Of a stretch of 64,000 bases of DNA, positions 1 through 19,854 are shown piece by piece (position 1 is the stretch's first letter; each line of letters begins with the position of its first letter). The stretch is from NCBI GenBank assembly GCA_001304015.1, contig LJUY01000003.1:62001-126000 (forward strand), given 5' to 3'. Both the position numbers and the translations under genes were made by a program. The notes below the pieces were generated by a model. The model had not been told where the DNA came from, made no database searches, and was given only the letters and a program-made list of their open reading frames with translations. This stretch comes from a candidate division Zixibacteria bacterium SM23_81 (GTDB lineage: Bacteria; SM23-81).

Positions 1-2
1 AG

Positions 3-2525
3 GGAGAAACCGAGGGCTTGCGAGAGGGGGTGAACACTCTGAAAGTCGTCCTCCCCCGAGTCGAATCAGAGTGGGATCACATCTTGTTTGACTGGTTCGA
101 AATTAAGTATTGGCGCGGATATCAGGCCGCGGAGGGAATGCTGCAGTTCTCCAGCCCCGACACCTCAGGGGTAGTTCAGTTTGATCTCCAAGCTTTTTCC
201 GAAGACCAGGTGCTGTTGCTGGATGTGAGCGATCCCTACAGGCCTGTGCGGATCACCGGAGGGTCCGTTCTTCCCCAGGATGCTCACTATTCCCTTCGTT
301 TTCAAGACACTCTATCAACGGCGGACCAAAGGCAATATTTCGCGGCCAATCCCCAAGCCTATATAACGCCTTTTTCTGTCCAGAGACATACCCCAGATAA
401 CCTGCGGGATGTAGCTGCCGATCTGATCATCGTGACGCCCCGGTTTTTCCAGCAGAGCCTGCAACCATTGGCCGCATTGCACCGGGAGGAAGGGTTGAGG
501 GTGGTGGTGGTTACCCTGGAGGACATATACGACGGTTTCGGCTGGGGATTAGAAGATCCCACAGCCATAAGGGATTTTTTATGGTTAGCCTATCACCAGG
601 GGCAGCCGCCTTCTCCCGCTTATGTCTTGTTATTTGGGGACGGCAACTTCGATTATAAAAACAACTCAGGGGCTGGTGGGAATAATTGGATGCCCCCCTT
701 TGAGACGGGCGATCTATGCACCGACGACTGGTTCGTGCGACTGGATGGAGACTACCTGGCCGATGTGATGATCGGGCGCCTGCCAGTGCGTTCCCACGAT
801 GAAGCCGATGTGATGGTGAACAAAATCGTGGATTACGTGAAGCAACCCCTCTTTGGACCCTGGCGGAATCGGATCATGGTCGTCTCCGACGACGAGACCG
901 CCAAGGATGGAAAGGGCAACGAGCTCTTTCATACTTGGGACAGCGAGGATTTGTCCCGAAACTTCATTCCTCCTTCTTATGGCCAGCATAAGGTCTATCT
1001 GATGGAATATCCCATGAGCTGGTCCAACAAGAAACCGGAGGCACAGCAAGCGGTTATCGATGGCTTCAACCAGGGTATGCTGGTCATCAACTGGATCGGA
1101 CACGGAAACTTCGATGTCTGGGCTCACGAAGACGCCTTCCGGAGTTCTAATGATATTCCCAAGCTGACCAATGGAAAGCGCCTACCCCTGGTGTATGCTG
1201 CCTCCTGTGATGTGGGCCGATTTGACCACACCATCAACGAATCAATGGCAGAGGAGCTCCTCAGAGCGAGGGAGAGAGGTGCCATAGCCAGCATCGCAGC
1301 CACCAGGGCTTGTTATGCATCCCCCAATGCGGAGCTTAATAAACAGGTCCTTCGTCGAGCGTTGGGAGATGAGGATCTTACCTTAGGAGAGGCTCTATTT
1401 GGGGCCAAGTTGAGCCGCCCCAATTCTTATAGCAACGATCAGAAATATACCCTTTTTGGAGACCCATGCATGAGGCTGGGAAAGCCAGAATTGGAGAGCC
1501 AAATCGTAAGTATGTCTCGGGATACGCTGAGAGCTTTGGATCGAGTCACAATTCATGGGCAGGTGTTGAGCCAGGGGCTTTCGGATACGACTTTTCAGGG
1601 GATCTTTTCCTTACAGGTGTTCGACTCCGCTCGGCCCACCACTTACGTGACCAAGGTCGGATCCATAGTGAACTACTTGCTGCCCGGCGCCACCATGTTT
1701 CGAGGTGTCTCCACGGTTAGTGATGGCCGTTTCCGGGCCACATTTATCGTGCCGAAGGACATCAGCTACGGGGGGCGAATGGCTCGAATCAGCGCTTACC
1801 TTAACGATCAGAGCAGAGACGGCCTTGCCTTTCGAGATTCCCTGCCCGTTCAGGGCACGGCCACGGTGGTGGCCGACACGCTTGGTCCAACCATCGAGCT
1901 GAGCATCTCCGGTCAGAGATTCGCCCACGGAGATTTTGTCTCTCGGCAGCCAAACATCGTCGCCCGTCTGGAGGATGAGAACGGTATCAACATCACGGGA
2001 GAAGTGGGACATTGGATCGTGCTGGCCGTTGACAGCGATGCCCAACGCATCAACGTCACCGATCAGTTCGACTACGATCCCGGAAGTTACCAGCGGGGAA
2101 TGCTGGAATACACCCTGGAGGGTCTGCAGGCCGGTCAACATACGGTGACCATGAAGGCGTGGGACAATTTTAACAATTTCACCACGGCCGCCATCTCTTT
2201 TGAGGTCACAGAGCAAGATGAACTGTTCCTGCGCCATGTGCTGAACTGCCCCAATCCCTTTAACCCTTCCTCTGAGGATACACGGTTTACTTATGAGCTC
2301 AGCCGCCCGGCGCGCGTGACCATTAAAATCTACACGGTAGCTGGCAGGCTCATCTGCACTCTGCCACAGGGAGAAGTCATGCAGGGGTATAACGAGAGCA
2401 GACCCTGGGATGGGACAGATCAGGATGGGGATCGCGTGGCCAATGGCGTCTATCTGTATAAAATCATTGCCCGTGCCGAGGGCAATCACACCGAGACTTA
2501 CGGAAAGGTGGTGGTTATGCACTAA
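3..2525 (+). CDS. C25 (gingipain/PorU-like) peptidase with C-terminal sorting domain, 5' partial
   Basis: Secreted cysteine peptidase of family C25. Counting from the TTG at 18, the catalytic His lies in INWIGHGNFDVW (about residue 362) and the Cys in VYAASCDVG (about residue 397), the usual C25 dyad. A beta-sandwich region follows, and the last 90 residues form a FlgD-Ig-like/type A sorting domain with the PNP box (NCPNPFNPSS) and a closing GVYLYKI strand. The frame is open to the left edge and no ribosome site precedes the TTG, so the true start is upstream. The family includes gingipains and PorU, the type IX sortase; unlike PorU this protein carries a sorting tail itself, so it may be a secreted protease rather than the sortase. 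The adjacent PorV/PorQ-like genes support export through a type IX-like route (inference). Confidence 0.85.
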   Translation, partial: GETEGLREGVNTLKVVLPRVESEWDHILFDWFEIKYWRGYQAAEGMLQFSSPDTSGVVQFDLQAFSEDQVLLLDVSDPYRPVRITGGSVLPQDAHYSLRFQDTLSTADQRQYFAANPQAYITPFSVQRHTPDNLRDVAADLIIVTPRFFQQSLQPLAALHREEGLRVVVVTLEDIYDGFGWGLEDPTAIRDFLWLAYHQGQPPSPAYVLLFGDGNFDYKNNSGAGGNNWMPPFETGDLCTDDWFVRLDGDYLADVMIGRLPVRSHDEADVMVNKIVDYVKQPLFGPWRNRIMVVSDDETAKDGKGNELFHTWDSEDLSRNFIPPSYGQHKVYLMEYPMSWSNKKPEAQQAVIDGFNQGMLVINWIGHGNFDVWAHEDAFRSSNDIPKLTNGKRLPLVYAASCDVGRFDHTINESMAEELLRARERGAIASIAATRACYASPNAELNKQVLRRALGDEDLTLGEALFGAKLSRPNSYSNDQKYTLFGDPCMRLGKPELESQIVSMSRDTLRALDRVTIHGQVLSQGLSDTTFQGIFSLQVFDSARPTTYVTKVGSIVNYLLPGATMFRGVSTVSDGRFRATFIVPKDISYGGRMARISAYLNDQSRDGLAFRDSLPVQGTATVVADTLGPTIELSISGQRFAHGDFVSRQPNIVARLEDENGINITGEVGHWIVLAVDSDAQRINVTDQFDYDPGSYQRGMLEYTLEGLQAGQHTVTMKAWDNFNNFTTAAISFEVTEQDELFLRHVLNCPNPFNPSSEDTRFTYELSRPARVTIKIYTVAGRLICTLPQGEVMQGYNESRPWDGTDQDGDRVANGVYLYKIIARAEGNHTETYGKVVVMH

Positions 2526-2615
2526 AGGGATTTTACACAGCCCTCAAAGCAGGATGATGATCACAATCTGACAGAAAAGTGTTTTTTTCGTTCACCCTCA
2601 CCGGAGGATAGAAAA

Positions 2616-3581
2616 ATGAGGAAATTTGCCCTTCTCGGCGTGACCCTTGTGATAATTCTCCTGACCGCCTCCCCCAGTTTCGCCGTGAGTCGAGCGGGAG
2701 TGCTGTTTCTGATGATCGCGCCGGGAGCTAGAGCCAGCGGAATGGGAGAATCTTTTGTGGCCGTCGCGGATGATGCCACCGCATCCTATTGGAATCCCGC
2801 TGGCCTTGGCTTTCTGAAGGAAAAAGAGCTGGTACTGATGCACAGCAAGTGGTTTCCCCAATTTGCGGACGATATGTTTTATGAGTTCCTCAGTTACTCC
2901 CACTATATTGAAGGTTGGGGAAGTGTGGGTGGACACATCATCTATCTGACCTACGGTAAGATCCCATACACCTCGGAATTTGGCCCACAAGTGCTGTTTG
3001 ACTTCACCAGCTACGAGATCGCCGGAGCCCTCTCCTATGGTACCGATGTGTCTGATAAGGTCTCTGTAGGAGTCAACATGAAAGGCATCTACAGCAATCT
3101 TGGCCCTGGTCAGAACGTGGAAAAGGGTGATGGCAAAGCCATGAGCTACGCTGTGGATGTGGGTGTTCTGTACAAAGGGCTGTTGCCCAAGCTGAAGGTT
3201 GGGGCCATGGTTCAGAACCTGGGACCGAACATCATGTACATCGACGCTGAGCAATCAAGCCCTCTTCCCCGGAACTTGAAGTGTGGGGCTTCTTATCAAC
3301 TCCTGGATACCCAATACAATGACGTCCTGCTGACCAGCGAGCTAAATGCCAGCCTTGTGGAGGAGGAGTTTCGTGTCAACGGGGGATTCGAATACTGGTA
3401 TGGGACGATTCTTGCTCTCAGAGCTGGATACATCTACGATGATTATGGGGAGATTAAAACGCCCACATTTGGAGCAGGCCTGCAATATAGTCGATACCGC
3501 TTTGATTTCGGGTATATTCCGGAGAAAGAAGGCCATCCCTTAGCCGACACCATGCGCTTTTCTTTGACGGCCAGGTTCTGA
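2616..3581 (+). CDS. PorV/PorQ family outer-membrane protein, copy 1
   Basis: A 321-residue predicted outer-membrane beta-barrel protein. It has a signal peptide (residues 1-23, ending SFA) and the family's conserved start, LFLMIAPGARASGMGE followed by YWNPAGLGF. Family members (PorV/LptO, PorQ, UPF0164) are fatty-acid-transporter-like barrels; PorV shuttles type IX cargo to the attachment complex. A GGAGG ribosome site lies just upstream of ATG 2616. The next gene is a close paralogue, and the pair follows the C25 peptidase, which fits a type IX-like secretion locus. It is not possible to say from sequence alone whether this copy is the PorV or the PorQ equivalent. Confidence 0.8.
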   Translation: MRKFALLGVTLVIILLTASPSFAVSRAGVLFLMIAPGARASGMGESFVAVADDATASYWNPAGLGFLKEKELVLMHSKWFPQFADDMFYEFLSYSHYIEGWGSVGGHIIYLTYGKIPYTSEFGPQVLFDFTSYEIAGALSYGTDVSDKVSVGVNMKGIYSNLGPGQNVEKGDGKAMSYAVDVGVLYKGLLPKLKVGAMVQNLGPNIMYIDAEQSSPLPRNLKCGASYQLLDTQYNDVLLTSELNASLVEEEFRVNGGFEYWYGTILALRAGYIYDDYGEIKTPTFGAGLQYSRYRFDFGYIPEKEGHPLADTMRFSLTARF

Positions 3582-3612
3582 TGAAAAGCTTCCCTCATCG
3601 TAGGGGTGATGC

Positions 3613-4596
3613 ATGAAAAAGAGCCTGCTTTTCACCAGCATCTTCCTGGGGAGTATATTGACGACTACGGCGAGTTTGGCGGTTAGCCAGTCGGGAGTGT
3701 TGTTTCTGATGATCGCGCCGGGCGCCAGAGCCAGCGGAATGGGAGAGGGATTTGTGGCCGTGGCCGATGACGCCACCGCTTCTTATTGGAATCCTGCTGG
3801 TCTCGGTTTTCAGCGGGGAACCGAAGTGGCACTCATGCACAGCAAGTGGTTTCCGGAGTTCACCAGCGACATGTACTACGATTTTGTCTGTTGGTCCTCC
3901 TTTTGGGAGGGAGTGGGAACCCTGGGGGGTCACATCATCTATTTTTCCTATGGCAACATGCCCTTAACCTCAGAATACGGCCCAGATATTCTCAGCTGGC
4001 ACCACAGCTATGAGGTGGCCATGGCCGGCTCTTTCGGAGCACCTGTGTCCCAGCATATTTCCGCCGGTGTGAGTTTGAAGGCCATCTACAGCGATTTAGG
4101 TCCCGGCCAGAATGTGGAGAGGGGAGACGGCAAGGCTATGAGCTATGCCGTAGATGTGGGTATTCTCGCTCGGGATCCCGTTCCTCGGCTGAATTTGGGC
4201 GCTATGGTTCAGAACATCGGACCCGATATCATGTACGTCGATGCCGATCAATCCAGCCCATTACCACGAAACTTGAAGGTGGGAGCCTCCTATCGCCTTT
4301 TCGGCAGCAGCTACAACGAGCTGATGCTGAGCAGTGAGCTGGATCTCAGTCTGGTAAGGGGTTTGGAGAGAGGGGAATGGGAGTGGTGGGGGAATCTGGG
4401 GTCTGAGTATTGGTACGCTCAGCTGCTTGCTCTCAGGGCTGGCTATCTCTACGACAAATATGGGGAAATCAAGACGGCCACATTTGGTGCGGGTCTCAGG
4501 TACAACATCTTTCGCTTCGATTTCGGTTACGTTACGGCCCGAGAAGGGCATCCCTTAGCCGATACGATGCGCTTTTCCCTGGCGGTGAAATTTTGA
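3613..4596 (+). CDS. PorV/PorQ family outer-membrane protein, copy 2
   Basis: A 327-residue paralogue of the preceding gene with the same layout: signal peptide ending SLA at residue 23, then an almost identical LFLMIAPGARASGMGE block, YWNPAGLGF, a LGPGQNVE...GDGKAMSYAVDVG stretch and a matching C-terminal strand (HPLADTMRFSL). The two copies are 31 nt apart in the same orientation, so a tandem duplication is the simple reading. This copy has an extra segment around residues 248-258 (RGEWEWWGN) that the first lacks. Role as for the first copy: fatty-acid-transporter-like barrel, probably serving secretion of the neighbouring sorted proteins. Confidence 0.8.
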   Translation: MKKSLLFTSIFLGSILTTTASLAVSQSGVLFLMIAPGARASGMGEGFVAVADDATASYWNPAGLGFQRGTEVALMHSKWFPEFTSDMYYDFVCWSSFWEGVGTLGGHIIYFSYGNMPLTSEYGPDILSWHHSYEVAMAGSFGAPVSQHISAGVSLKAIYSDLGPGQNVERGDGKAMSYAVDVGILARDPVPRLNLGAMVQNIGPDIMYVDADQSSPLPRNLKVGASYRLFGSSYNELMLSSELDLSLVRGLERGEWEWWGNLGSEYWYAQLLALRAGYLYDKYGEIKTATFGAGLRYNIFRFDFGYVTAREGHPLADTMRFSLAVKF

Positions 4597-4632
4597 TCAG
4601 CTTCAACTCATGAGTTTGGTCAAGAGGAGTTC

Positions 4633-7600
4633 ATGAAAGCCATAAAGATTGTACTTTTCATAGTGAGTTTCTACGCCATGGCGGTTCTTTGCGTCCTTGG
4701 TCCTGAGGCCGAGTCCAGCGGGAACCTCCCAAATCCGACACTTCGATTGATCAGAACTGGTTTTCACCAATCTATTTTGGATCGAAGCGATCCGGTCAGG
4801 GGATTGTCCATCTCCACAGGGGATGTCCCGGATAACGTTCTGGCCATACGGGTTGATTTTCCTGAAGACACCACCTCTACGACTACCGGCACGGGAAAGT
4901 TTGACTTATCCACTGGCTCAGACGAGACCATCAACCCCTCGCCCCACGATCGGCTCTATTTTGAGCGTCAAATGGAGGCTCTGAGGAACTATTACGCGAA
5001 CGTCTCCAGAGGACAACTGGACTTCTCATATCTCATCTATCCCCTTGATGAGCAGGGAGCTTATACCCTGCCCCACGAGATGGCCTATTACTACCCCAAT
5101 ATCACCGAAGAGGAGAACGATCGTCGGCTGGCTGAGTTCTTTCGGGATGCCCTGGAGGCGGCCGATGCCGCAGGCACCATCGATTTTTCGCAATTCGACG
5201 CCGTGGTCATCTTTCACGCTGGAGTCGGGGCGGACATCTCCTTCGCCATAGATGAGACGCCCAACGACATACCCTCGGCCTACATAGATTTGGACTGGCT
5301 GGTCCGATCCCTGGGATCTGAGTATGCTCAGGGTGTGGCGGTGAATGGGGGCAGCCATCATATCCCAGAGGGCTTGTGGATGCCCGAGACGCTCAACCAG
5401 CAGGATATCGAATTTGGCCTCACCGGACCCTTGGCCAAGCTGTTCGGACATCGACTGGGCCTGCCCAATCTTTATAATAGCCTCGATGGCTCTTCGGGCA
5501 TCGGCGCCTGGGGTCTAATGGACCAAGGCTCGGGAAACGAATTGGGGCTGATTCCCCCTCAGCCCTGTGCCTGGTCTCGAGTCTTTCTGGGCTGGGAAGA
5601 GCCCGTGATGGTGCGGGATAGCCTGAGCGTGGCCGTAGAAGCTCTGGTGCTCGGGGGTTCCAATGCCACCATATTGAAAGTTCCCATCAATGCAGAGGAG
5701 TATTTCCTCATCGAGAACCGACAACGAGATGCTCTGGGAGATGGGCTTATGACCCAAGGAGCAGGTGGGGTTCTGCTGGAGGTGGATGAATACGACTGGG
5801 GTATTCCCGGCTCGGGCCTGCTCATCTGGCACGTGGACGAGAAGGTGATCGAGGAACATTATGCCACCAACACCGTCAACGCCGACCCCTATCACCGAGG
5901 AGTGGACCTGGAGGAGGCGGATGGCTTTCAGGACATCGGCTTCATCATCTATGGGGGATTCGTTACCTATGGATCTCCGGAAGATGCCTTCTACCAGGGC
6001 AACAACACGGCCTTCACCCCGAATACCGAGCCCGGCTCCGAGAGCTACAGCGGCGCCGACAGCCACATCTTTGTCACGGAAATCGGTCCCTCGGGTGCCA
6101 CCATGACCTGCGACGTGTCCAACGACATCCACCAGCCTGGCTGGCCCGACTCCGTGGGGGTCTCCCTGGCCGACAATCCGCCCCTGGTGGGGGATCTTGA
6201 TGGCGACGGGGACATAGAGATCGTTGTAAATTCGCTCGATGGTCGAGTTTTCGCCTGGAACCACGACGGGAAGCCTTTTCTGCCTGGGGCAGACAGCTCG
6301 GCTCTGTTCGTCCAGCTGGCGGATTCGGCAGTCGGGAGCGCCGCCTTGGGGAACCTGGATTGGAATCAGGATCTAGGGATGGCTTTGGGAGATGTAACTG
6401 GCAAGGTGCATGCGTGGAACAACCGTGGCGAGGAGATAATTGGCTTTCCGTATAATTTGGATCACCCGATCTCGAGTGCTGCTATTGTCTCACCTATCAT
6501 ACCTACAGGGTTACAATCTGGAATCCTTATATATAGAACTGCAGAGATTGTAGTTGGGACGTCCGATGGTTGGGTATATGGATTGGGTCTTTTTGGATTC
6601 ACACCAGGTATGATGTGGAATCTAGGGACTTTCTGGGAAATAAATCTGGATGATGCGAAGATTAAAGCCCTGGCGATTGCAGAGAATACACCTTGGCCTG
6701 AAACGTATTTGGTGGCCGCCGGGACGGTCGACGGCCATGTGGCTTGGTGGTATCCTTACGCGGAGGGGACCATTGAACCTATGGTCGTACAGACCTCCTC
6801 GGATGTCGTCGGATTGGCCACCGGAGATCTGGATCGGGACAATGAGGTGGAGGTCATCGCTGTCTGCGCCGGGGGAGATGTCTACGCCTGGAACTTGGAT
6901 GGATCACCGCTCTCTGGCTGGCCAGTGGAAACGGGCGGTCCACTCAAGAGCTCTCCGGCACTGGGTGATATCGATGACGATGGCTACCTGGAGGTGGTGG
7001 TCTCCGGCACCGACCAGATCTGGGCCTGGAACTACAACGGCTCGCCACAGACGAATTTTCCCATCTCTCTGGGCACCATGGGAACTTTGAGATCCTCGCC
7101 TGTCCTGGGTGATGTGAACCAAGATGGAGCAGTGGATATCGTGTTGGGCACGCCCCAGGGATTATTGGTGGCCTACGACAGGTTCGGGGGTCCTCTGGAG
7201 GGCTGGCCCCTGGCTTGCGTCGGGGCGGTGGAAGCCTCTCCGACCTTGGCGGATATTGATGGCGATGGGGATATAGAGCTTCTGACCAGCGATGAGGATG
7301 GCTGGATGTACGTTTGGGATTTGGCGGCTGAGCCCGACTCCGCCCAGCTGCCCTGGCCAACCTGGGGGCATGATTTCCGGCACACCGGAGGTTTTCCCAA
7401 CTCCCAGCTTCCGCCTCTACCCCCAGCGGGAGAACTGATGCCCAGAGCCTCGGTGTACAACTACCCTAATCCCACCGAGGGCCAGAACACCACGATACGT
7501 TATACCATCGGCCAGGAGGCCGATGTGAACATACGCATCTACGATCTCTCCGGCGACCTGGTGGCCGAGTTGCCCGGCACCGGGTTCGCCCATACGGAAA

Positions 7601-7716
7601 ATGAGATCGTTTGGGATCTCTCGCAGATAGCCAGCGGAATTTACCTCTGCCGTGTGGAGGCCAAGGGGGCCAGTGGGGGGGAGACGGCCTTTTGCAAAAT
7701 AGCGGTGGTGAAATAA
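4633..7716 (+). CDS. M6-like secreted protein with degenerate zinc site, VCBS/FG-GAP repeats and sorting domain
   Basis: A 1027-residue secreted protein. After a signal peptide (residues 1-24 or so), residues 60-500 resemble the M6 (immune inhibitor A-like) peptidase fold. The family zinc motif, normally HEFGHxLGLPDLYD, reads KLFGHRLGLPNLYN at residues 269-282, so the first His and the catalytic Glu are replaced by Lys and Leu. The downstream GIGAWGLMD block is intact. Residues 510-920 are a beta-propeller of FG-GAP/VCBS repeats (GDLDGDGDIEIV, GDIDDDGYLEVV, ADIDGDGDIELL). The last 85 residues are a PNP-type sorting domain (YNYPNPTEGQNTTIRY). It is probably a catalytically dead surface protein, unless the active site uses other residues. 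Base composition dips at about 6430-6690, inside the propeller. Confidence 0.82.
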   Translation: MKAIKIVLFIVSFYAMAVLCVLGPEAESSGNLPNPTLRLIRTGFHQSILDRSDPVRGLSISTGDVPDNVLAIRVDFPEDTTSTTTGTGKFDLSTGSDETINPSPHDRLYFERQMEALRNYYANVSRGQLDFSYLIYPLDEQGAYTLPHEMAYYYPNITEEENDRRLAEFFRDALEAADAAGTIDFSQFDAVVIFHAGVGADISFAIDETPNDIPSAYIDLDWLVRSLGSEYAQGVAVNGGSHHIPEGLWMPETLNQQDIEFGLTGPLAKLFGHRLGLPNLYNSLDGSSGIGAWGLMDQGSGNELGLIPPQPCAWSRVFLGWEEPVMVRDSLSVAVEALVLGGSNATILKVPINAEEYFLIENRQRDALGDGLMTQGAGGVLLEVDEYDWGIPGSGLLIWHVDEKVIEEHYATNTVNADPYHRGVDLEEADGFQDIGFIIYGGFVTYGSPEDAFYQGNNTAFTPNTEPGSESYSGADSHIFVTEIGPSGATMTCDVSNDIHQPGWPDSVGVSLADNPPLVGDLDGDGDIEIVVNSLDGRVFAWNHDGKPFLPGADSSALFVQLADSAVGSAALGNLDWNQDLGMALGDVTGKVHAWNNRGEEIIGFPYNLDHPISSAAIVSPIIPTGLQSGILIYRTAEIVVGTSDGWVYGLGLFGFTPGMMWNLGTFWEINLDDAKIKALAIAENTPWPETYLVAAGTVDGHVAWWYPYAEGTIEPMVVQTSSDVVGLATGDLDRDNEVEVIAVCAGGDVYAWNLDGSPLSGWPVETGGPLKSSPALGDIDDDGYLEVVVSGTDQIWAWNYNGSPQTNFPISLGTMGTLRSSPVLGDVNQDGAVDIVLGTPQGLLVAYDRFGGPLEGWPLACVGAVEASPTLADIDGDGDIELLTSDEDGWMYVWDLAAEPDSAQLPWPTWGHDFRHTGGFPNSQLPPLPPAGELMPRASVYNYPNPTEGQNTTIRYTIGQEADVNIRIYDLSGDLVAELPGTGFAHTENEIVWDLSQIASGIYLCRVEAKGASGGETAFCKIAVVK

Positions 7717-7744: not shown

Positions 7745-8698
7745 ATGAAAGGCAGGTTTGTTCTTTGGTCTTTCGTTCTTGTTTTTGCGGTTTTGGCCTG
7801 GGGCGCTGCGGCCGTGGCGGATGCAGTTCCACAGGAGGAACTGATTCGCAATCATTTTCTCAAGGCGAATGCCTCTCTGCAGGAACTGGCCTTGGGACAA
7901 GGAGATCTTCGAGCTCATGCCCTTGGCCAAGCGCAAGGTCCCATGGAGGGGACATCCGCTGGTGCAACTGGCCTCAAGTCTCCGGGGAAAGCCCTGTTGC
8001 TCTCGGCCGCTGTACCTGGGGCGGGGGAGTTCTATGCTGGAGCGTGGAAGCGGGGCATTGCTTTCTCAGCCCTGGAAGTGGCCTCCTGGACGTGGTATTT
8101 CACCCAGCACAGTGCGGGCAAGGACAAGGAAGACGAGTACGAGGATTTTGCCGACGATGAGTGGTCCAGAGAACAATATCAAGACTGGTACGATCACTGG
8201 GAGGACTGGTACGACGCCCGCAAGGGGGACAACGATCCTCCTTTCGAAAGCATCTTCACGCACGAACTGCCTGGTCAGAAGGATGAGGACTACTACGAGA
8301 TGATTGGGAAATACGACCAGTTTTCCTATGGTTGGATTGGCAATCCCGATGACTACCTGCCCGGCGAATTCGCCCCTAACGACTCTCTCCTGGGCTACGA
8401 TTTCACGGACCAGTATACTACTCGCGACATCTGCCGGGGAGTTGACGCCACGGCCACGGCACATCGAAATAGCTATGTCAACCAGCGAGGCGATGCCAAC
8501 GACCTCCTGAAGCGGGCTACCTGGGGCATCAGCGCCAGCCTGTTTAACCACGTGATCAGCGCTTTGGACGCGGTTGTGGCCGCCAAGGCATACAACAGGA
8601 GGGTTTTGCAGGAGGCCGGGTATCCCCAGCTACGGATGGAATTGGACATGTACGCGGGGGAGGTCATCCCCAAATTCACTCTGACGAAGAGATTTTAG
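7745..8698 (+). CDS. DUF5683-like membrane protein, copy 1
   Basis: A 317-residue protein of unknown function. It has an N-terminal signal sequence (residues 1-27), then the DUF5683-type block SAAVPGAGEFYAGAWKRG at about residues 83-100 and a hydrophobic segment. A strongly acidic, aromatic middle (residues 120-200, rich in Asp, Glu, Tyr and Trp) follows, then a conserved tail (LFNHVISALDAVVAAKAYN). The same PG-x-G-x-FYA start and NH-(L/V)-(L/I)-SA-(V/L)-DA tail occur in the gene at 11781, so the two are paralogues flanking the propeller peptidase. It is probably a membrane- or envelope-bound accessory of the same surface system; no reaction can be assigned. ATG 7745 follows an AAAGGAGGGCGAG ribosome site. 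Confidence 0.6.
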   Translation: MKGRFVLWSFVLVFAVLAWGAAAVADAVPQEELIRNHFLKANASLQELALGQGDLRAHALGQAQGPMEGTSAGATGLKSPGKALLLSAAVPGAGEFYAGAWKRGIAFSALEVASWTWYFTQHSAGKDKEDEYEDFADDEWSREQYQDWYDHWEDWYDARKGDNDPPFESIFTHELPGQKDEDYYEMIGKYDQFSYGWIGNPDDYLPGEFAPNDSLLGYDFTDQYTTRDICRGVDATATAHRNSYVNQRGDANDLLKRATWGISASLFNHVISALDAVVAAKAYNRRVLQEAGYPQLRMELDMYAGEVIPKFTLTKRF

Positions 8699-8736
8699 TG
8701 ACCTTTTTGCATGGCCCAAAAGGGATGAGGCTTCAG

Positions 8737-11700: not shown

Positions 11701-11784
11701 GCGGAAAAAGGTGGATGGCGGTTTTATTTCAATCTTCTGTTCACTTTCATTAGCTCTAACGGATATCGCGGAGGGGGCAGATGA
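8737..11784 (+). CDS. HExxH peptidase / WD40-like propeller / Omp85-type barrel fusion
   Basis: A large envelope protein of about 1015 residues. Residues 1-26 are a signal peptide; residues 85-290 form a gluzincin-type peptidase domain with HEFTH (H124, E125, H128) and a downstream Glu in WFAEGVAQY (E184). Residues 310-590 hold a TolB/WD40-like propeller with repeated WSPDG motifs, and the last 380 residues look like a surface-antigen barrel (GLRGYSYYSIEGRR resembles the Omp85 loop-6 motif). The frame is open from a GTG at 8698 that overlaps the previous stop, but the ATG at 8737, preceded by GATGAGG, gives the cleaner signal peptide. It is probably an outer-membrane-anchored periplasmic protease, unusual in combining all three parts. 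Confidence 0.75.
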   Translation: MRVLIAYALLCLGAIMASSGLTSAYNHPELKWRTIEGEHFRVHYHQGAERTAQLASQIAEEIYEPITSLYDYPLPDVVDLVIYDTDDYSNGMTYYYENKIAIWASQMDWELRGTHNWLRNVITHEFTHMVSLQAARKFPRWLPAFYLQHVGYEEEKRPDVITGYPNVLISYPLPGTVVPLWFAEGVAQYQAPALEYETWDTHRDMLLRMAVLGERFLGYDEMGGFGKDGLDSELVYNQGYSLTSFIAERYGSEKLEDLCKAMRTPWRYDFGSAVKRVIGKSENELYEEWHAHLLERYRRQQGAVEVNLAAGRKLTHEGWMNIHPAWSPDGTKLAYLSNKGSDYQIMSLYVMDVETEQVENMAGGLRSAASWSPDGKKLVYSKRVAPNKYGSHVNDIYLYDLETEKEKRLTHDLRAAEPRWSPDGQSILVVLNDDGTHNLALLDAEGQLVRALTDNADGTQYYRPRWSSSGEDILVCTYRGGSRDIGIMKADGTGFRLLIRGLEDERDPCWVAEGQTVCFACDRSGIFNLYAYNMDAGGLVQVTNVVGGAFNPSISPDGETMAYSGFCEDGYQIHLLPLEEALGQPVDIPPIVDLDHNPGHEEKTPNIQSRPYKSIFTKTFFLPRFVVDDRKFKAGLYLSSMELLNKQSVFATVVAGKGVDFDLYAQYENRMFAPTLFFEAFRLRKHVQDRIRGPVYISGVPYDTRLRLDLRYDLTEFDLGIRYAWSEPFSVTYQKELSLTYIFSKYDVYLEIWTREAVPGYGPEGSFIGKDSWTYFRGHDLSLRWDYKSISRALDAEINPRGGREIHARYDRMFNKLINPNTLRETEYGFVTAYYKNYYDQLLLDWKEYKALPWGRHSLVLRLKGGVIDQAVDDFFYLQLGSQEGLRGYSYYSIEGRRIALGSMTYRFPILKDIRRQLFHVYFSKLYGSVFFEAGKAWNDDTFNLDGLKRDVGGELRLDAFSYYAFPTKISFQVAYGLDKIAAIQNRPAEKGGWRFYFNLLFTFISSNGYRGGGR

Positions 11785-12554
11785 GGGCGTGTGCTGGTAT
11801 TTTTTGGATCGCATGGCTTGTCGCCATCCTACTGACCCTATTCACAGCCGTCATAGCTGGGGGCCATACCGGCGAGGTGCCATCTCATCCATCCAACGTC
11901 GCTGGGCATAACATTCTCAGGATGAGCTCCGTGATGGCAGAGGCTGGGGAACCTATTTCAGGACAATCCAATACGAAATCGGTGCCCAAAGCTTTTTTTC
12001 TCTCTCTTCTGGTGCCCGGGACGGGGCAATTTTATGCTCAGGCCCCGGGCCGCGGCCGGGTTTTCTTAGGAACGGAACTGGCTATCCTGGCTGGTTTTTT
12101 GGGCTTTCGCCTGTACAGCGATTGGAAAGAGGAAGACTATCAGCTCCATGCGGCCACACACGCCGGTGTGAACCCCTGGGGCAAATCGAAGAGTTACTTC
12201 GAGGACGTGAGCCTTTTCATGAGCATGGAAGAGTACAACCGTCGACAACTTATAAATTTCCGGGAGGACGCCCAGCTATATTCAGGAGCTGATTTCTGGG
12301 AGTGGGATAGTCAAGCATCGCGCCGGAAATTTGACTCTCTGTATCGGGCCAGCACCAACGCGGAAGACAACTCTATTCTCATGACGGGGGTAGGCCTGCT
12401 CAACCACCTGTTGAGCGCTGTGGACGCTGCCAGGACAGCCAAGGCATACAACAAAAAATATGCCTCCAGCCCATCACCGGTTCAATTCACCTTTAAGGTG
12501 AAGCCGTTTCCGGGATCCTCGATGGTGATGGTTGGACTGAAGAAAAGATTTTGA
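11781..12554 (+). CDS. DUF5683-like membrane protein, copy 2
   Basis: A 257-residue protein of unknown function and paralogue of the gene at 7745. It shows a signal sequence, the block SLLVPGTGQFYAQAPGRGR at about residues 75-93, a following membrane segment (FLGTELAILAGFLGF) and the tail GLLNHLLSAVDAARTAKAYN. The start ATG overlaps the previous stop by 4 nt, so translation is probably coupled to the propeller peptidase. The acidic middle of copy 1 is replaced by a shorter, more mixed stretch. A structural or assembly role in the envelope is likely from context only. Confidence 0.6.
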   Translation: MRACAGIFWIAWLVAILLTLFTAVIAGGHTGEVPSHPSNVAGHNILRMSSVMAEAGEPISGQSNTKSVPKAFFLSLLVPGTGQFYAQAPGRGRVFLGTELAILAGFLGFRLYSDWKEEDYQLHAATHAGVNPWGKSKSYFEDVSLFMSMEEYNRRQLINFREDAQLYSGADFWEWDSQASRRKFDSLYRASTNAEDNSILMTGVGLLNHLLSAVDAARTAKAYNKKYASSPSPVQFTFKVKPFPGSSMVMVGLKKRF

Positions 12555-12685
12555 TTGCAGCTGTCCTTTCTGCCTCTATCGCTCCCCTTCCAACATTTCA
12601 TCTCCATTCCTATCTCTCCACATTCCGGCCCAGAGCGGCTCTGGCGATTTCCCATACGATTCTGTTCTTTGACGGAGAAAAAAAC

Positions 12686-13681
12686 ATGTTTTCCGGTCGA
12701 TTTCGCTCCTCTTTCTGGCGTACAGGATTTTCGGCCCCCTTTGTGCTGTTGATCCTTCTGGTCTTAGACTGCTCCCCAGCCAAATCCCCAGGCAGAGCCC
12801 CATGGTGGCAAAGGGGGCGTTCCGCTCCACCCAAGGCTTTGAAGTTTGTCCGGGCTTTCGGCAGCCACGGCAGCGAGCCTGGTCAATTCCTGAATCCTCA
12901 GGGCATCTCCGTTGATCCTGAGGGAAACATCTATGTGGCGGATACGGGTAATCATCGAGTACAGAAGTTCGATGCCCGCGGTGGTTTCATCGAGGAAATT
13001 GGGGGATTCGGCTGGGGAGAGGCCCAATTCAATCAACCCACAGGTCTGACAGCTCGGGAGGGTTTGAATATCTTCGTGGTGGATTCTCAGAATCGAAGGG
13101 TGCAGCGTTTAGACCGCTCTCTGAACTACCTCTCCATCATACCCTCCTCTCCCAAGGAGGATCAACAGCTCAACCTAGGGTTTTTGTGGGGTATCGAGGT
13201 GGCCTCCACCGGCGAGCTGTTCGTCAGCGATGTGGAAAACGAGCAGCTGATCAAGCTGACCTCCTTCGGCGAGCTGGAGAGATCCTTTGGAGGATTCGAA
13301 TCCGGTCCAGAGCGGTTGCGAGCTCCTGCGGGCTTGACGGTGACTCCCGGGAATGCCGTCTGCGTGGCCGACGTGGCCAACGACCGCATCGTCATCTACG
13401 ATTCCTTTGGGGGATTTTTAGGCACTTTGGGCGAAGGCGTGCTCAAGGAACCCCGGGGCCTGGAAGTCGACAATCAAGGTTTCCTCTTCGTGGTCGACAC
13501 CGGCCATGATCGGATCTGCGTTTTCAGTCCTCAGGGTGAACTGTTGTTCAGCCTGGGAGGCACCGGTGGTGGATTCGGCTCCTTTCAATTACCATCAGAC
13601 CTGGCGGTTTTCGGCACGGCTTGGGTTTGCGTCTTAGACTCCGGCAATGAGCGGATTCAGGTCTTCGAGATCGTGCGCTGA
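12686..13681 (+). CDS. NHL-repeat lipoprotein
   Basis: A 331-residue predicted lipoprotein. The signal peptide ends in a lipobox-like LVLDC (Cys29), and the rest is a six-bladed NHL propeller with repeats such as NPQGISVDPEGNIYVADTG, QPTGLTAREGLNIFVVDSQN and EPRGLEVDNQGFLFVVDTG. NHL propellers usually bind proteins or glycans. The frame is open back to 12551, but ATG 12686 is chosen because it gives a proper lipoprotein signal and has GGAG about 10 nt upstream. It sits between a DUF5683-like gene and a large barrel protein, so an outer-membrane scaffold role is plausible. Confidence 0.75.
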   Translation: MFSGRFRSSFWRTGFSAPFVLLILLVLDCSPAKSPGRAPWWQRGRSAPPKALKFVRAFGSHGSEPGQFLNPQGISVDPEGNIYVADTGNHRVQKFDARGGFIEEIGGFGWGEAQFNQPTGLTAREGLNIFVVDSQNRRVQRLDRSLNYLSIIPSSPKEDQQLNLGFLWGIEVASTGELFVSDVENEQLIKLTSFGELERSFGGFESGPERLRAPAGLTVTPGNAVCVADVANDRIVIYDSFGGFLGTLGEGVLKEPRGLEVDNQGFLFVVDTGHDRICVFSPQGELLFSLGGTGGGFGSFQLPSDLAVFGTAWVCVLDSGNERIQVFEIVR

Positions 13682-13744: not shown

Positions 13745-16700
13745 ATGAGAGCTAATGCCCTTAGCCATCTGCTGTCTCTGTTGATGCTTGGAGGGCAGCT
13801 TTTGCTGCCCGCCGGCTTCTGCACCGGGCAGCCAACCCAGGAGGAGTACTATTCCCTTCTGCACAGAACAGTTGTGTTGGAGGCAGATGGCACCGTCGGT
13901 CCCTTCCAGTTGCCAGATCGATTTCTCTTGCCCCGGAGCGAGCAAGTTTGGGTCGATGAGCGACCCTTAGCCGAGCCGCAGGACTATAGCCTGAACTACG
14001 ATCGGGGCCTGCTTACCTTTACGGTGCCACCGCTCCCATCCGCCGTCATCCGCGTGCAGTACGAAAGATTTCCTTTTCCCCTTAAAAACAAATACTTTCA
14101 CCGAGAACAGAAACTCAAGCAGGACGCAGCGCCACTTGTCGTGCCACCGGCTGTCTCTGAGGTCCCGACCGCTGCTTGGGCGTCCGGTCCATCGGCCCTG
14201 AGGGTTGCAGGAAGTAAGACCTTTGCCGTATCTCTGGGGTCGGAGCGCGACTTCTCTCTGGAACAGTCGCTGAGGGTCAACATCTCCGGACAGGTGTCGC
14301 CCGATGTAGAGGTGGTGGCCTTGCTTTCAGATCAAAGCAGTCCGCTTCAGCCTGAGGGAGACACCCAGACTCTGGAGGAAATTGACAAGGTGCTGGTGGA
14401 GATACGTGGGAGCAGAGCGACGGCCACCCTGGGTGATTATGAGATCTCCTATCTGGAGGGAGAGTTCGGACAATTTGACCGGAAGTTGCAAGGGGCTAAG
14501 GGAAATGCAAAAATTTCGGGGGCCGAATTAACCTTGGCTGGGGCCGTCTCTAAAGGGACCTTTCGGACCGTGAATTTTGAGGGCATCGAGGGCAAGCAAG
14601 GCCCTTATCAGTTGACCGATGATCAAGGCGGAACGGATATCATCGTTCTGGCTGGCACCGAGAGGGTTTGGCTGGATGGCGAGAAGCTCATTCGCGGTCA
14701 GAACAACGACTACATCATCGAATACAGTAGCGGGGAGATCACCTTTACAATGCATCGCCTCATCACCGCAGATTCTCGCATTGTCGTGGATTATGAGTAT
14801 TCTGGCCGAAAGTTCAAACGAAGTTTCTACGGAGGACATGGAAGCGTATCTCTGCTGGATCACAAGCTGCAACTGCGAAACATGTTTATCAGGGAGTCTG
14901 ACGATGGGGAGAGCCCCATAGACGTTGCGCTATCGCGCCAGGATCGGGTCATTCTCGCCGAGGCTGGTGATGATCCCAGCTTGGCGTGGAAAGATGGCTG
15001 GGTGCTCGTAGACACCAGCGCGGGAGAGGAGGGAGACTACGTATGGGTGGATTCAACCTATTTTCTGTACGTGGGACCTGACTCAAATGGCATCTACAAC
15101 GTCGCCTTTTCCGATATGGGCTCTGGCAATGGAGAGTATGTTCGTGAGTTTAGCCTGACGGATAATCGCTATTACTACGTCTACAATGGAGATGGCGACA
15201 GGCGGTATCTGCCACGGATCTTTCTGCCTTTGCCGGGTAGCCAGTCTATGATCGACTTGCAGGCCGAATTCCTTCCCCTGTCCACTCTGCAGCTAAGGGC
15301 CGAATTGGGACTCAGCCATAGAGATAACAACACGCTATCGGAGACAGGTGACGGCGATAACGTTGGGCAGGGTCTTGCTTTTGAAGGAAGGCTCGTGGAC
15401 CAGGCCATCAGAGTGGGAGCCCGGGGATTGGGCCGTCTGGATCTGGCTGGCAAGTTTCGCTCCACAGATGATCGCTTTCGATCGCCAGGCCGCACCGAGG
15501 AAGTAGAGTATTATCGTCGTTGGGATCTCGATCGAGAAAGACCCCCAGAAGCTGAAGAAGTGAAGGAGCTTTCTGGCACTTATAGACCCTTCTCGGCGGC
15601 AAAAGTGAGCGTGGAATATGGTCGACTCCGCAGAGGGGATTTTTTCTCCTCCGCTCGTCAGCGATTGAGCTCGGAGGTTGCTCCCCGTTACCTGCCACAA
15701 GTGGCGGTCTACTATGAGGTGATCGAGAGCGAAAGAACTGATACCAGTCTGGCAGCCTCGAGACGGCAGAGTACTACCTGGATTCGACAAGGCTTAACCG
15801 CCCATCAAACCATTTGGCGCTTGAAACCCCTGTTCACATGGGAAAGCGAATCCAGAGAGGCAAAAGAGCTGGATCTTTTAACTTCTGGGGAACGTTACGA
15901 TGAATTTCGTTGGGGGCTTACCACAGTGAACTGGGGAGCTTTCAAGGGCTCTACGGAGATGACCTATCGCCAGGACGACGCCTACCAGGGAGCATGGCTG
16001 AGAAAAAGCCTCGGACGGACCCTGCAGAATCGGTTAGCTTTGCAAAATTGGCGTTCACTGTCCCTTACAGCTGAATACACCCGACGCACCCTGCGCACCA
16101 TGCCTTTTCATGAGGTGGCTGGAGCTTACAGCGAGGTGGATCTCATTCTGACCAAGGCCAGCTACGCTCCCCTAGAAGGTGCCGTGCAGGCTCAGGTGGA
16201 CTACCAAGTCAGCAACTCCCAAAGCAGTCAGAGGCGGAGGATACCAGTGGATGTCGGGGAGGGCAAGGGGGACTATATCCTGGAGGACGGCGAGTATATC
16301 CCCGATCCTGATGGAAACTGGGTTTTCCGAACGGAGACGGTGGGCGATTCCATCCCGGTCACCGATCTGGCAGCTGGTCTCCGTATGCGTCTCACTCCTC
16401 ACCGGGCTATAGGTCAGGAAGCTTCCGGAACACTGGGCTTTCTCCGTCACTTCTCCACCGATACCTACGTCAAGATCGATGAGCAGACTAAAGAGAAGGA
16501 CAAAGTGTCCATCTATCTACTTCGGCTCGACAAATTCCAGCAGGATAGCACCACCATCCGAGGTGAGATCTCCTTTCAGCAGGACCTGTTTCTCTTCCCC
16601 GAGCGGAGGGATATTGGGATTCGTCTTCGTTATCAGACGACAGACCGGGAGAACAACCAGTATGTAAGCGGGGGAGAAGAAAATTTGAGAATCAATCGGT

Positions 16701-17197
16701 CTTTGCGACTCGATCTGGCCCCCAAAAGTCGCCAGATGCTGCGGCTGGAGTATGGGCACGAGAACAAATTTCGGAAAGTGCAGGACGTTCCCAGGAGCCG
16801 GATTCGAGCCGATAACCTCTCCGCAGAAGGGACCTTTCGTCAAGGGCGCAGTCTTGAGCTTTCCTTGGGTCTTCAGCTTCGGAGCGATGGGGATGATGTG
16901 GGCGCAACAAAATCGCGAATGATATCCCTGTTGCCCAAGGCCTCATACTCGTTTTTGGCTCAAGGTCGGTTGAGAACCGAGTTCGAATGGGCCCGTGTAA
17001 GCTCTCAGCCCAAAAACGCGGCCATATCTTGGGAGATGGCTCAGGGCAACAAGGCGGGCGACAACTATCGCTGGAGCCTAGGAGTCGATTACCGAGTCAA
17101 TCAATACATCTCGGCAACGGTGAGCTATTCCTTGCGCTCACAGCCGGAACGCCCCACCCGGCATTTGGGCAGGGCCGAGATGAGTGCTTTTTTCTGA
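13745..17197 (+). CDS. large predicted outer-membrane beta-barrel protein, function unknown
   Basis: About 1150 residues. It begins with a signal peptide (to about residue 28, AGFCTGQ); the remainder is almost wholly alternating beta-strand pattern with many charged and aromatic residues and no obvious enzymatic motif. The region around residues 215-245 (LGDYEISYLEGEFGQFDRK) and two ISGQ/GEITF-type strands recall filamentous or barrel-forming surface proteins of FCB bacteria. I do not recognise a named family. GTG 13739 is possible, but ATG 13745 has better spacing (9 nt) from GAGGG. The next gene, an Omp85 protein, follows within a TGATG junction, so the pair may form an assembly partner and substrate. 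Confidence 0.65.
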   Translation: MRANALSHLLSLLMLGGQLLLPAGFCTGQPTQEEYYSLLHRTVVLEADGTVGPFQLPDRFLLPRSEQVWVDERPLAEPQDYSLNYDRGLLTFTVPPLPSAVIRVQYERFPFPLKNKYFHREQKLKQDAAPLVVPPAVSEVPTAAWASGPSALRVAGSKTFAVSLGSERDFSLEQSLRVNISGQVSPDVEVVALLSDQSSPLQPEGDTQTLEEIDKVLVEIRGSRATATLGDYEISYLEGEFGQFDRKLQGAKGNAKISGAELTLAGAVSKGTFRTVNFEGIEGKQGPYQLTDDQGGTDIIVLAGTERVWLDGEKLIRGQNNDYIIEYSSGEITFTMHRLITADSRIVVDYEYSGRKFKRSFYGGHGSVSLLDHKLQLRNMFIRESDDGESPIDVALSRQDRVILAEAGDDPSLAWKDGWVLVDTSAGEEGDYVWVDSTYFLYVGPDSNGIYNVAFSDMGSGNGEYVREFSLTDNRYYYVYNGDGDRRYLPRIFLPLPGSQSMIDLQAEFLPLSTLQLRAELGLSHRDNNTLSETGDGDNVGQGLAFEGRLVDQAIRVGARGLGRLDLAGKFRSTDDRFRSPGRTEEVEYYRRWDLDRERPPEAEEVKELSGTYRPFSAAKVSVEYGRLRRGDFFSSARQRLSSEVAPRYLPQVAVYYEVIESERTDTSLAASRRQSTTWIRQGLTAHQTIWRLKPLFTWESESREAKELDLLTSGERYDEFRWGLTTVNWGAFKGSTEMTYRQDDAYQGAWLRKSLGRTLQNRLALQNWRSLSLTAEYTRRTLRTMPFHEVAGAYSEVDLILTKASYAPLEGAVQAQVDYQVSNSQSSQRRRIPVDVGEGKGDYILEDGEYIPDPDGNWVFRTETVGDSIPVTDLAAGLRMRLTPHRAIGQEASGTLGFLRHFSTDTYVKIDEQTKEKDKVSIYLLRLDKFQQDSTTIRGEISFQQDLFLFPERRDIGIRLRYQTTDRENNQYVSGGEENLRINRSLRLDLAPKSRQMLRLEYGHENKFRKVQDVPRSRIRADNLSAEGTFRQGRSLELSLGLQLRSDGDDVGATKSRMISLLPKASYSFLAQGRLRTEFEWARVSSQPKNAAISWEMAQGNKAGDNYRWSLGVDYRVNQYISATVSYSLRSQPERPTRHLGRAEMSAFF

Positions 17198-17217
17198 TGG
17201 TTAGGCTGAAGGAGCAA

Positions 17218-18993
17218 ATGGTGGAGAGCTTCAGGTTGAAAATGCTCTGCATTTGTATTGCCTGTCTGCTGAGCTGGTGGGCCGAGGCCGCAGGGCAGGA
17301 TCGACCAGTGGTGCGCAGGATTCACATCCAGGGCCATCGGATCGCCACAACCAGGGCGCTTCTCAAGAAGATGGCCACCAGGGAGGGAAAACCTCTGGAT
17401 CAAATGGTCCTGGAGGCGGATATCCAGACTCTGCTCCAATGGTATCGAGACCAGGGCTATCTCCGGGTTCGCATTTCCCCACCAGGCCTGAATTTGAACC
17501 AGGACTCTTCCCAGGTGGATGTGGTTCTGCCCTTGGATGAAGGTCCTCTTATTCTGATAGGCCAGGTGGAAATGCAGGGCAATCAGCACCTCACCCGAGA
17601 AGACATAGGGAGCCAGATGGATCTGCATCCCGGATCGGTCTTTCAAGGTAATATCCTAGAGGCTGATCTGGAACGTCTGCTGGAGGCCTATGAGAACCAC
17701 GGCTTGCCCTATTGCCAAATTCAGGTGACCGACTTCCAGATCACCCCTGAAGATCGGCTCGACTTTCGGCTAGTAATCGATGAAGGCCCGCAGGTTCGAG
17801 TGCAGTCGGTGGAGCCGGAGGGCAACACCATCACCAGAAATTCTGTGATACGCCGGGAGATGGGGATTAAGGTAGACGACCTCTATAGCCAGCGAGCCAT
17901 AGAGCGGGGACGCAGGAAGCTTCAGCGCCTAGGCTTTTTCCAGGAGGTGGGGGAAGTTCGTCTTGAGGTGGGAAGCCGCCTTGACTTGGTGGTGTTGAGA
18001 GTGCCAGTGGTGGAGGGCCGTTCCAATACCGTCGACGGTGTATTGGGTTATCAGCCGGCCACAGAGGTACGCAAGGGATATTTCACAGGCCTCCTGGATC
18101 TCTCCTTTCGCAATCTCATGGGCACGGGCAGGAAAGTAGAGGCCATGTGGAGCCGTCGGGAGCCGACCTCCTCCCAGCTGCAATTTGGCTATCAGGAGCC
18201 ATGGCCCTTAGGACTTCCTGTGACTGTGGGTGGCTCTATCCAGCAGGTGAACCAGGACTCCTCATATGCCCAAACGAATCTGGAGATTCAGGTTGACTCT
18301 CATCTGGGGGAAAATTTGTCCGGGGGCGTGCTGTTTGGCTGGGAACGAGTTATACCTGACGTGGCCGGCGGCCAGGATCTGTTCAATAGTAGAACCTATT
18401 CCGTCGGCCTTCGTCTGGAGCTGGATGCCAGGGATAATCCATTGGGCCCCAGAAGGGGAGGGCGCTATCAGACGGCCATTCGGCATCGTTTCAAGGAAAA
18501 TCGGTCCGCCGGGAACATCCAGCCGATTCAGAGACGAGTGGAGAGCACCGAGTTCACGGTAGGGCTGGAGCAGTATATGAACCTGCATCGTCGCCATGTG
18601 GTAGCAGCCAGCGTCCATTTGGGCGAGATTCGCAGCGATGAGCAGGTCATCCCGCTCAATGAGCAGTTCAAGCTCGGGGGAGCCAGAACGCTGCGCGGAT
18701 ATCGCGAGGAGCAGTTTCATGGATCCCGGGTCATCTGGACCAATTTGGAATATCGGCTCTTGTACGGACGCCGCTCGTGGAGTTTTTTGTTTCTGGACGC
18801 CGGCCATTATTTCCGTCAGGTACGTGATCCCCTGACTGGGGCCATCGGCGAGGCCAGCGGGGAAAAGGTCGGCTATGGCGTAGGCTTACGCGTAGACTCC
18901 CGACTGGGCATTTTGGGTGTGGACTATGGGCTGGGAGAGGGAGATGGTCTCACAGAGGGCAAGGTTCATTTTGGGGTGCTGAACGAATTCTAA
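17218..18993 (+). CDS. Omp85/BamA-family outer-membrane assembly protein
   Basis: A 591-residue outer-membrane protein of the BamA/TamA superfamily. A signal peptide (residues 1-25) is followed by at least three POTRA domains (strands starting VVRRIHIQGHRI, LILIGQVEMQGNQ and RVQSVEPEGN) and a C-terminal 16-stranded-type barrel. The diagnostic loop-6 motif is visible in GARTLRGYREEQFHG. The family inserts barrel proteins or exports surface proteins. ATG 17197 overlaps the previous stop but lacks a ribosome site; ATG 17218 has AAGGAG 3 nt upstream and is preferred. Three POTRA and short length suggest TamA-like or a specialised paralogue rather than the essential BamA with five. The upstream 1150-residue barrel protein may be its client. 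Confidence 0.85.
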   Translation: MVESFRLKMLCICIACLLSWWAEAAGQDRPVVRRIHIQGHRIATTRALLKKMATREGKPLDQMVLEADIQTLLQWYRDQGYLRVRISPPGLNLNQDSSQVDVVLPLDEGPLILIGQVEMQGNQHLTREDIGSQMDLHPGSVFQGNILEADLERLLEAYENHGLPYCQIQVTDFQITPEDRLDFRLVIDEGPQVRVQSVEPEGNTITRNSVIRREMGIKVDDLYSQRAIERGRRKLQRLGFFQEVGEVRLEVGSRLDLVVLRVPVVEGRSNTVDGVLGYQPATEVRKGYFTGLLDLSFRNLMGTGRKVEAMWSRREPTSSQLQFGYQEPWPLGLPVTVGGSIQQVNQDSSYAQTNLEIQVDSHLGENLSGGVLFGWERVIPDVAGGQDLFNSRTYSVGLRLELDARDNPLGPRRGGRYQTAIRHRFKENRSAGNIQPIQRRVESTEFTVGLEQYMNLHRRHVVAASVHLGEIRSDEQVIPLNEQFKLGGARTLRGYREEQFHGSRVIWTNLEYRLLYGRRSWSFLFLDAGHYFRQVRDPLTGAIGEASGEKVGYGVGLRVDSRLGILGVDYGLGEGDGLTEGKVHFGVLNEF

Positions 18994-19014
18994 ACTCGAG
19001 GGGGGAGATCGCTG

Positions 19015-19854
19015 ATGCGCCCAACGAATCCTTATCTGGAGCTGATCAGACCGCTGAATGTGGTCATCGCTGCTCTCTCCGTCTTTGTGGGAGCTCTGGT
19101 TTCTGCTCCTTTACGGTGGGATTTTCGCGTCTTGTTGGCCTGTCTGGTGGCGGCTTTGATAACTGGCGGAGCGAATGTCCTCAACGACGTCTTCGATGTG
19201 GACATCGATCGGGTCAACAAGCCTCGCAGACCTCTGCCCTCGGGTCGCGTCCATAGAGACCAAGCCACAGTTTTCTCGGTGGCTCTTATGGTGCTGGGTG
19301 TCGCCATCAGCCCTTTTTTGGGTCTCTGGGCTTTTTTCATCGCCCTGCTGGCTGCATCTCTCATGATCTTATACAGCGCTCGCCTCAAGCGAGCTTTGCT
19401 CCTGGGCAATCTGACGGTGGCCCTCGTCGCAGCTTTGGCTTTCCTCTATGGAGGGATCGCCGTGCGCAGGCCAATCGAAGCCCTCGTTCCTGCGGGATTC
19501 GCCTTACTCTTTCACCTGGGACGGGAGATGATCAAAGATGCCCAGGATTACGAGGGGGATCAGGCTATGGGAGCCCGCACATTACCGGCGGTGATCGGCG
19601 TGCCCCGCGCCATCAGATGGGCTGGTCTGGTCTTCAGCCTGTTGATTCTGGCCAGCCCGGTGCCCTTTCTGGTGGGCCACTATTCCTTAGCCTATTTGAT
19701 CGTCGTGGTCTTGGGCGTGGACTTTCCCGTGCTCTATGTGATTTTCTCCTCTAATCGGAATCCCAGCTCCCGTCATCTGGGCCGGTTGAGTTTTTTGCTC
19801 AAATTGGATATGTGGGTGGGATTGGTGGCGATATTGCTGGGGGTTTGGGCTTAA
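19015..19854 (+). CDS. UbiA-family prenyltransferase
   Basis: A 279-residue integral membrane enzyme with about eight or nine hydrophobic segments. The first Asp-rich motif is NDVFDVDID at residues 57-65 and the second KDAQDYEGD at about residues 182-190; both coordinate Mg-diphosphate in the family. The substrate is uncertain: similarity in the motif surroundings is to geranylgeranylglycerol-phosphate geranylgeranyltransferase-type members, which bacteria of this group often carry, but quinone or chlorophyll-type acceptors cannot be excluded. It follows the Omp85 gene by 21 nt and precedes a repeat-rich spacer. Confidence 0.8.
   Translation: MRPTNPYLELIRPLNVVIAALSVFVGALVSAPLRWDFRVLLACLVAALITGGANVLNDVFDVDIDRVNKPRRPLPSGRVHRDQATVFSVALMVLGVAISPFLGLWAFFIALLAASLMILYSARLKRALLLGNLTVALVAALAFLYGGIAVRRPIEALVPAGFALLFHLGREMIKDAQDYEGDQAMGARTLPAVIGVPRAIRWAGLVFSLLILASPVPFLVGHYSLAYLIVVVLGVDFPVLYVIFSSNRNPSSRHLGRLSFLLKLDMWVGLVAILLGVWA

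Follow-up and report, generated by a model that had tools for sequence, protein, structure and literature searches.

Descriptions of the type IX secretion system (T9SS) come mainly from Bacteroidota and include a GldLM motor. Its outer-membrane translocon, SprA/Sov, is a 36-strand barrel (PMC10994853; PDB 6h3i, 8gl6, and 8gl8), and in Porphyromonas gingivalis the surface attachment complex consists of PorU, PorV, PorQ, and PorZ (PMC7463736). For the candidate phyla studied here, a literature search gave no usable report of a T9SS. We analyzed a stretch of 64,000 nucleotides (G000:C79:62001-126000, hereafter the window) from a genome of 3.07 Mb in 99 contigs that is 92.6% complete (G000). Its phylum is represented by four genomes in our comparison, including a same-family relative (G003) and a member of a second family (G001); one same-family relative is deposited as Candidatus Zixiibacteriota CSMAG_1598. 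We also used a Flavobacteriales genome (G013), whose phylum supplied a sample of 296 genomes. The cluster at the start of the window probably represents the surface sorting and attachment part of a T9SS combined with a second large outer-membrane barrel that has its own assembly factor. What is new is a variant of T9SS gene organization with an undescribed barrel family, not a new type of secretion.

The operon and its sortase genes

Ten genes run in one direction from before base 1 to position 18993, and a UbiA-family gene follows 22 nt further as the eleventh in the row:

1–2525, + strand: PorU, the T9SS sortase, with a C25 fold and a C-terminal sorting-type domain (NF033707; 6za2)
2616–3581, + strand: PorV/PorQ-family barrel, copy a (NF033709, 252 bits)
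3613–4596, + strand: PorV/PorQ-family barrel, copy b (NF033709, 247 bits)
4633–7716, + strand: M6-like protein that has lost HExxH, with an FG-GAP propeller and a type A sorting tail (NF052323; Por_Secre_tail)
7745–8698, + strand: DUF5683-like protein a (PF18935, 21.8 bits, cut-off of 26.7 not reached)
8698–11784, + strand: MA-clan metallopeptidase (HEFTH intact) fused to a TolB-like propeller and an Omp85-like barrel
11781–12554, + strand: DUF5683-like protein b (PF18935, 23.4 bits, under the cut-off)
12683–13681, + strand: NHL-propeller protein, probable lipoprotein (NHL, 118 bits; frame open from TTG 12551)
13745–17197, + strand: giant outer-membrane barrel of an unnamed family related to SprA (start at GTG 13739 or ATG 13745)
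17197–18993, + strand: Omp85 protein with three POTRA repeats (PF07244, 118 bits in 3 stretches; PF01103, 77.5 bits)
19015–19854, + strand: UbiA-family prenyltransferase, adjoining the operon only in G000 and G003 among the loci seen

The shared direction and tight spacing of the ten genes, as given in a preliminary description of this DNA, were confirmed, while its overlap sites, gaps, and the starts of the NHL and Omp85 genes required correction. True overlaps occur at three junctions (TAG/GTG at 8698, 4 nt at 11781–11784, and TGATG at 17197), and the intergenic gaps measure ~20–90 nt, except for ~130 nt preceding the NHL gene. An overlap at 12551 is probably false, because homology begins at about residue 35 of that frame, making ATG 12683 the likely start; likewise, the Omp85 gene probably starts at ATG 17197 rather than 16987. 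The upstream flank carries a geranylgeranyl reductase gene and genes that, from our own reading of the sequences, we take to be recG and an ftsZ/mur cluster. The UbiA-family gene at the other end is probably not part of the system.

The PorU frame extends ~1620 nt upstream of the window, whose edge cuts the gene. Its product scores 752 bits against the NCBIfam PorU model NF033707 (cut-off 420) and matches the structure of P. gingivalis PorU (6za2) with an E-value of 1.4e-71, aligning the GHG and CD motifs that provide the catalytic His and Cys. On these sequence matches, the C25 gene is PorU, a core T9SS gene with both catalytic residues kept. The view that the window holds no canonical T9SS gene thus stands for gldKLMN and sprA, but not for PorU. 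Two further large C25 proteins encoded elsewhere in the genome (G000:C9:103809-108044 and G000:C38:1523-3736) score ~270–280 bits against the PorU model, under the cut-off, and are possible PorU2-type sortases or C25 cargo.

Both PorV/PorQ-family barrels exceed the cut-off of 90 bits of their family model. Copy a reaches 186 bits with the PorV equivalog model (cut-off 250) and 85 bits with the PorQ model (cut-off 220), and both copies are nearer in sequence to PorV than to PorQ. The M6-like protein has NF052323, the T9SS-dependent M6-like inactivated metalloproteases, as its best-matching family, which it resembles in its sorting tail (Por_Secre_tail, 34.8 bits, cut-off 23) and in the loss of HExxH. 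It departs from that family in scoring 537 bits, under the cut-off of 600 (564 bits for the G001 relative), and in having relatives, in Candidatus Eisenbacteria and at a further locus, L043, that keep HExxH intact (AHEFGH, AHEMGH); in the window's phylum, the motif is lost. The simplest reading of these motifs is a once-active peptidase that lost its activity and kept its place. Matches of the M6-like protein to solved structures covered propeller repeats only and were set aside.

The operon thus resembles the P. gingivalis attachment complex in encoding a PorU with catalytic residues, PorV-family barrels, and a surface protein with a propeller and a sorting-type C-terminal domain. It differs in having a second PorV-type copy and the M6-like/FG-GAP protein where PorQ and PorZ would be, and in encoding a giant barrel and an Omp85 protein in the same operon. 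If the biochemistry known from Bacteroidota applies here, cargo proteins bearing a C-terminal sorting domain would be exported through SprA in complex with PorV, and PorU would cut off this domain and link them to a lipid at the cell surface. The M6-like propeller protein and the second PorV may take the places of PorZ and PorQ, respectively, which is put forward as an analogy only, because no protein of the operon exceeds the cut-off of the PorQ model (best score 85 bits) or that of the PorZ model (28.8 bits, C-terminal domain only, cut-off 260). In G001, a PorV gene (L031:10293-12560, − strand) contains an in-frame insertion of ~420 residues behind residue 66. The insertion is made up of Reg_prop propeller repeats and a LysM domain and weakly resembles PorZ, which hints at joint action of propeller and PorV.

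Gene order in other phyla

The prediction of synteny in relatives was borne out. All ten genes, the UbiA-family gene, and the flanks are collinear in G003 at ~65–80% protein identity. Two Candidatus Eisenbacteria genomes have eight genes in the same order (PorU, PorV, M6, DUF5683, DUF5683, NHL, giant barrel, and Omp85), with no match at these loci for the peptidase–propeller–barrel protein or a second PorV. Shorter rows occur at L043 (M6, DUF5683, NHL, barrel, and Omp85) and L054 (DUF5683 genes, NHL, barrel, and Omp85), and DUF5683-like gene a is kept in G003, G001, and L051, gene b being likewise conserved. The eight ordered genes of Eisenbacteria are ~25–41% identical to their counterparts across phyla, and judged from these comparisons, their shared order is not a matter of chance.

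The second family of the window's phylum arranges the genes differently. One G001 locus holds PorU, one PorV, the M6-like gene, the peptidase–propeller–barrel gene, and the two DUF5683-like genes, with ~4 kb separating PorU and PorV; another holds the NHL, giant barrel, and Omp85 genes. Because of this split, we rejected the ten genes as one indivisible system in favor of two modules. The initial proposal of a single surface system therefore survives as a T9SS-linked surface module that comes in two parts.

A more conservative explanation is that an uncultured FCB bacterium simply has an ordinary row of T9SS genes beside unrelated outer-membrane genes, with nothing new. PorU, PorV, and the M6-like protein do belong to named families, and NHL and Omp85 proteins are common, which would suit such a row. 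The eight-gene order kept between phyla at such low identity already weakens this explanation, and we consider it very unlikely given that the barrel family, unnamed in Pfam and NCBIfam, is nevertheless widespread (see below).

Family and predicted fold of the giant barrel

The preliminary description listed the large barrel, but missed its kinship to SprA and that it is the most unusual part of the cluster. The protein consists of 1152 residues and belongs to no family named in Pfam or NCBIfam. Among the NCBIfam models, SprA (TIGR04189) comes closest, at 25.9 bits over 52 residues (cut-off 200); SprA_N (PF14349) gave no match in it, and a comparison with PDB sequences returned nothing believable. 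A scan of GTDB genomes identified 20 barrel loci from KSB1, Zixiibacteriota, Cloacimonadota, WOR-3, Marinimicrobia, Eisenbacteria, Gemmatimonadetes, Flavobacteriales, and others. Searches of 20 family members against Pfam and NCBIfam yielded weak matches only, SprA being among them for 10 of the 20 by NCBIfam. The N-terminal part contains a small domain twice (alignment score 84, where 500 shuffles reached at most 36), and the second copy matches SprA over 83 residues with 96.7% probability.

AlphaFold predicts the same elements in the same order for the window barrel (pLDDT 80.1) and for a second member sharing ~23% identity with it (pLDDT 72.2), with ~36–39 barrel strands in both by our own count from DSSP. 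SprA is the top PDB match, and SprA entries occupy Foldseek ranks 1–4 for both members. Using VIA-align 2, SprA aligned over 651–692 residues with Z-scores of 14–18, whereas the other barrels listed had similar Z-scores over at most ~480 residues. The TM-scores of the models to SprA are low, 0.21–0.26, and we therefore claim relatedness of fold and not close similarity. The predicted fold of the giant barrel comes nearest to that of SprA. The resemblance lies in the Foldseek match over the whole barrel, the common 83-residue domain, and the similar predicted number of strands. The giant barrel differs in giving no SprA_N match and in being about half as long as SprA/Sov, which has ~2000–2400 residues.

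The Omp85 protein encoded next to the barrel combines POTRA repeats and an Omp85 barrel, as in BamA and TamA. It differs from BamA in its size of 598 residues, its three POTRA repeats, and a score of 193 bits with TIGR03303 (cut-off 297), and its gene differs from those of both BamA and TamA in being tied to one barrel gene.

The barrel in relation to SprA and to the motor

Seventeen of the 18 barrel-bearing genomes tested contain SprA, and in these the giant barrel is encoded separately, in addition to a full-length SprA. In the phylum of G013, 228 of the 296 genomes have SprA and 175 have a strong full-length barrel match; the two occur together in 174 of the 175 barrel-positive genomes, and the barrel is found in one of the 68 genomes lacking SprA (Fisher p = 1.6e-31, uncorrected for phylogeny). 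Put the other way, 76% of SprA-positive genomes have the barrel (174/228) and 54 have SprA without a strong barrel match.

These counts bear on whether the giant barrel might take over from SprA as an alternative translocon for part of the cargo. Its SprA-like predicted fold and strand number, with most inserted domains of SprA missing, and the PorV copies encoded with it here would be in keeping with such a role. SprA is, however, retained in nearly all barrel-bearing genomes and occurs without the barrel in the 54 genomes above, so the barrel does not replace it; no link to cargo is known either, and we regard an alternative translocon as unlikely. In three loci, T9SS cargo genes lie next to the barrel gene, but because they are common they were discounted as evidence. 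L055 and L056 have C25 proteins close to the barrel, which were considered as PorU and did not exceed the cut-off.

Among the 20 GTDB loci, the NHL gene lies directly upstream of the barrel in 11 and the Omp85 gene downstream in 10. A further set of 20 loci, from the phylum of G013, has neither PorU nor PorV beside the barrel, and NHL is upstream in two. This pattern might point to the barrel, NHL lipoprotein, and Omp85 protein forming a general module for outer-membrane biogenesis or lipid transport that merely sits beside sortase genes: NHL–barrel pairs, with or without Omp85, also occur away from PorU in the second family, KSB1, and Marinimicrobia, and LptD, another large barrel, is among the Foldseek matches. 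A general module is nonetheless improbable in our judgment, given the near-exclusive co-occurrence of the barrel with SprA, the repeated linkage of PorU, PorV, or M6-like genes to it in distant genomes, and SprA being the best Foldseek match for both members. In three loci of the same phylum (L128, L129, and L131), the barrel occupies a fixed place just downstream of two genes, which we take from our own sequence reading to be acetyltransferase-like and aspartate-kinase-like, a position unlike that in the T9SS-linked loci.

Linkage, predicted fold, and co-occurrence together favor a role of the barrel as a conduit. In such a scheme, the Omp85 protein would insert the 36–39-strand barrel, the NHL lipoprotein would bind to it, and the barrel would open a second wide route by which cargo or lipid anchor reaches the sortase site; these are the weakest steps of the proposal. 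The link between barrel and sortase can be indirect, since the barrel lies apart from PorU in the second family and has no PorU or PorV neighbor in the 20 loci from the phylum of G013.

Of gldK-N and sprA, which the preliminary description proposed to look for elsewhere in the genome, sprA was found on a separate contig (PF14349, 114 bits, in a 1962-residue frame at C94), and 77 Por_Secre_tail matches are spread across the genome. GldL, GldM, and GldN were not detected over cut-off in G000 or its relatives by the profile searches on which all our statements of absence rest. The same GldL and GldN models score 222 and 236 bits in G013, which alone among the 18 barrel-bearing genomes has GldL over cut-off. 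Two sub-cut-off GldM matches (TIGR03517 and PF12081), in frames of 187–189 residues of the second family, were not believed. The locus can accordingly be called a T9SS-linked variant, as first suggested, in that it departs from the Bacteroidia pattern, with sprA present and GldL, GldM, and GldN undetected. It is not a separate system, because the T9SS ordinarily includes PorU, PorV, and SprA, and proteins of this M6-like kind already have an NCBIfam name.

Within the phylum of G013, GldL was matched in 70 of the 228 SprA-positive genomes and in none of the other 158, a pattern that fits both loss and insensitivity of the model. A T9SS with no recognizable motor may thus be common outside the studied lineages. 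The barrel does not follow the motor, since it is similarly present in SprA genomes with GldL (53 of 70) and without (121 of 158). The conserved order of the sortase module among FCB candidate phyla, where SprA, PorU, and PorV occur and the motor proteins were not detected, raises the question of what powers export there. We tentatively suggest, with more doubt than for the reading of the cluster as a whole, that the widespread barrel family, whose barrels are predicted to equal SprA in size, with its dedicated Omp85 protein and NHL lipoprotein in FCB candidate phyla, could be a missing T9SS component, a second conduit serving the sortase, in SprA- and PorU-containing systems that may run without the GldLM motor. 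If the barrel is a part of the T9SS, it has gone unnoticed in a group that has been studied well.

Two minor observations concern other genes in and around the window. The UbiA-family protein is near archaeal-type GGGP geranylgeranyltransferases (248 and 215 bits, under the cut-offs), and the geranylgeranyl reductase family protein on the other flank of the operon (L009:14548-15633; C79:58548-59633) scores 235 bits, over its cut-off. Going by these matches, the two genes may take part in archaeal-type ether lipid synthesis, which has been reported for FCB bacteria (PMC7852524). Farther downstream, positions 36925–40047 (− strand) of the window encode a protein of 1040 residues that combines a lamin-tail domain and endonuclease I, possibly a secreted nuclease.
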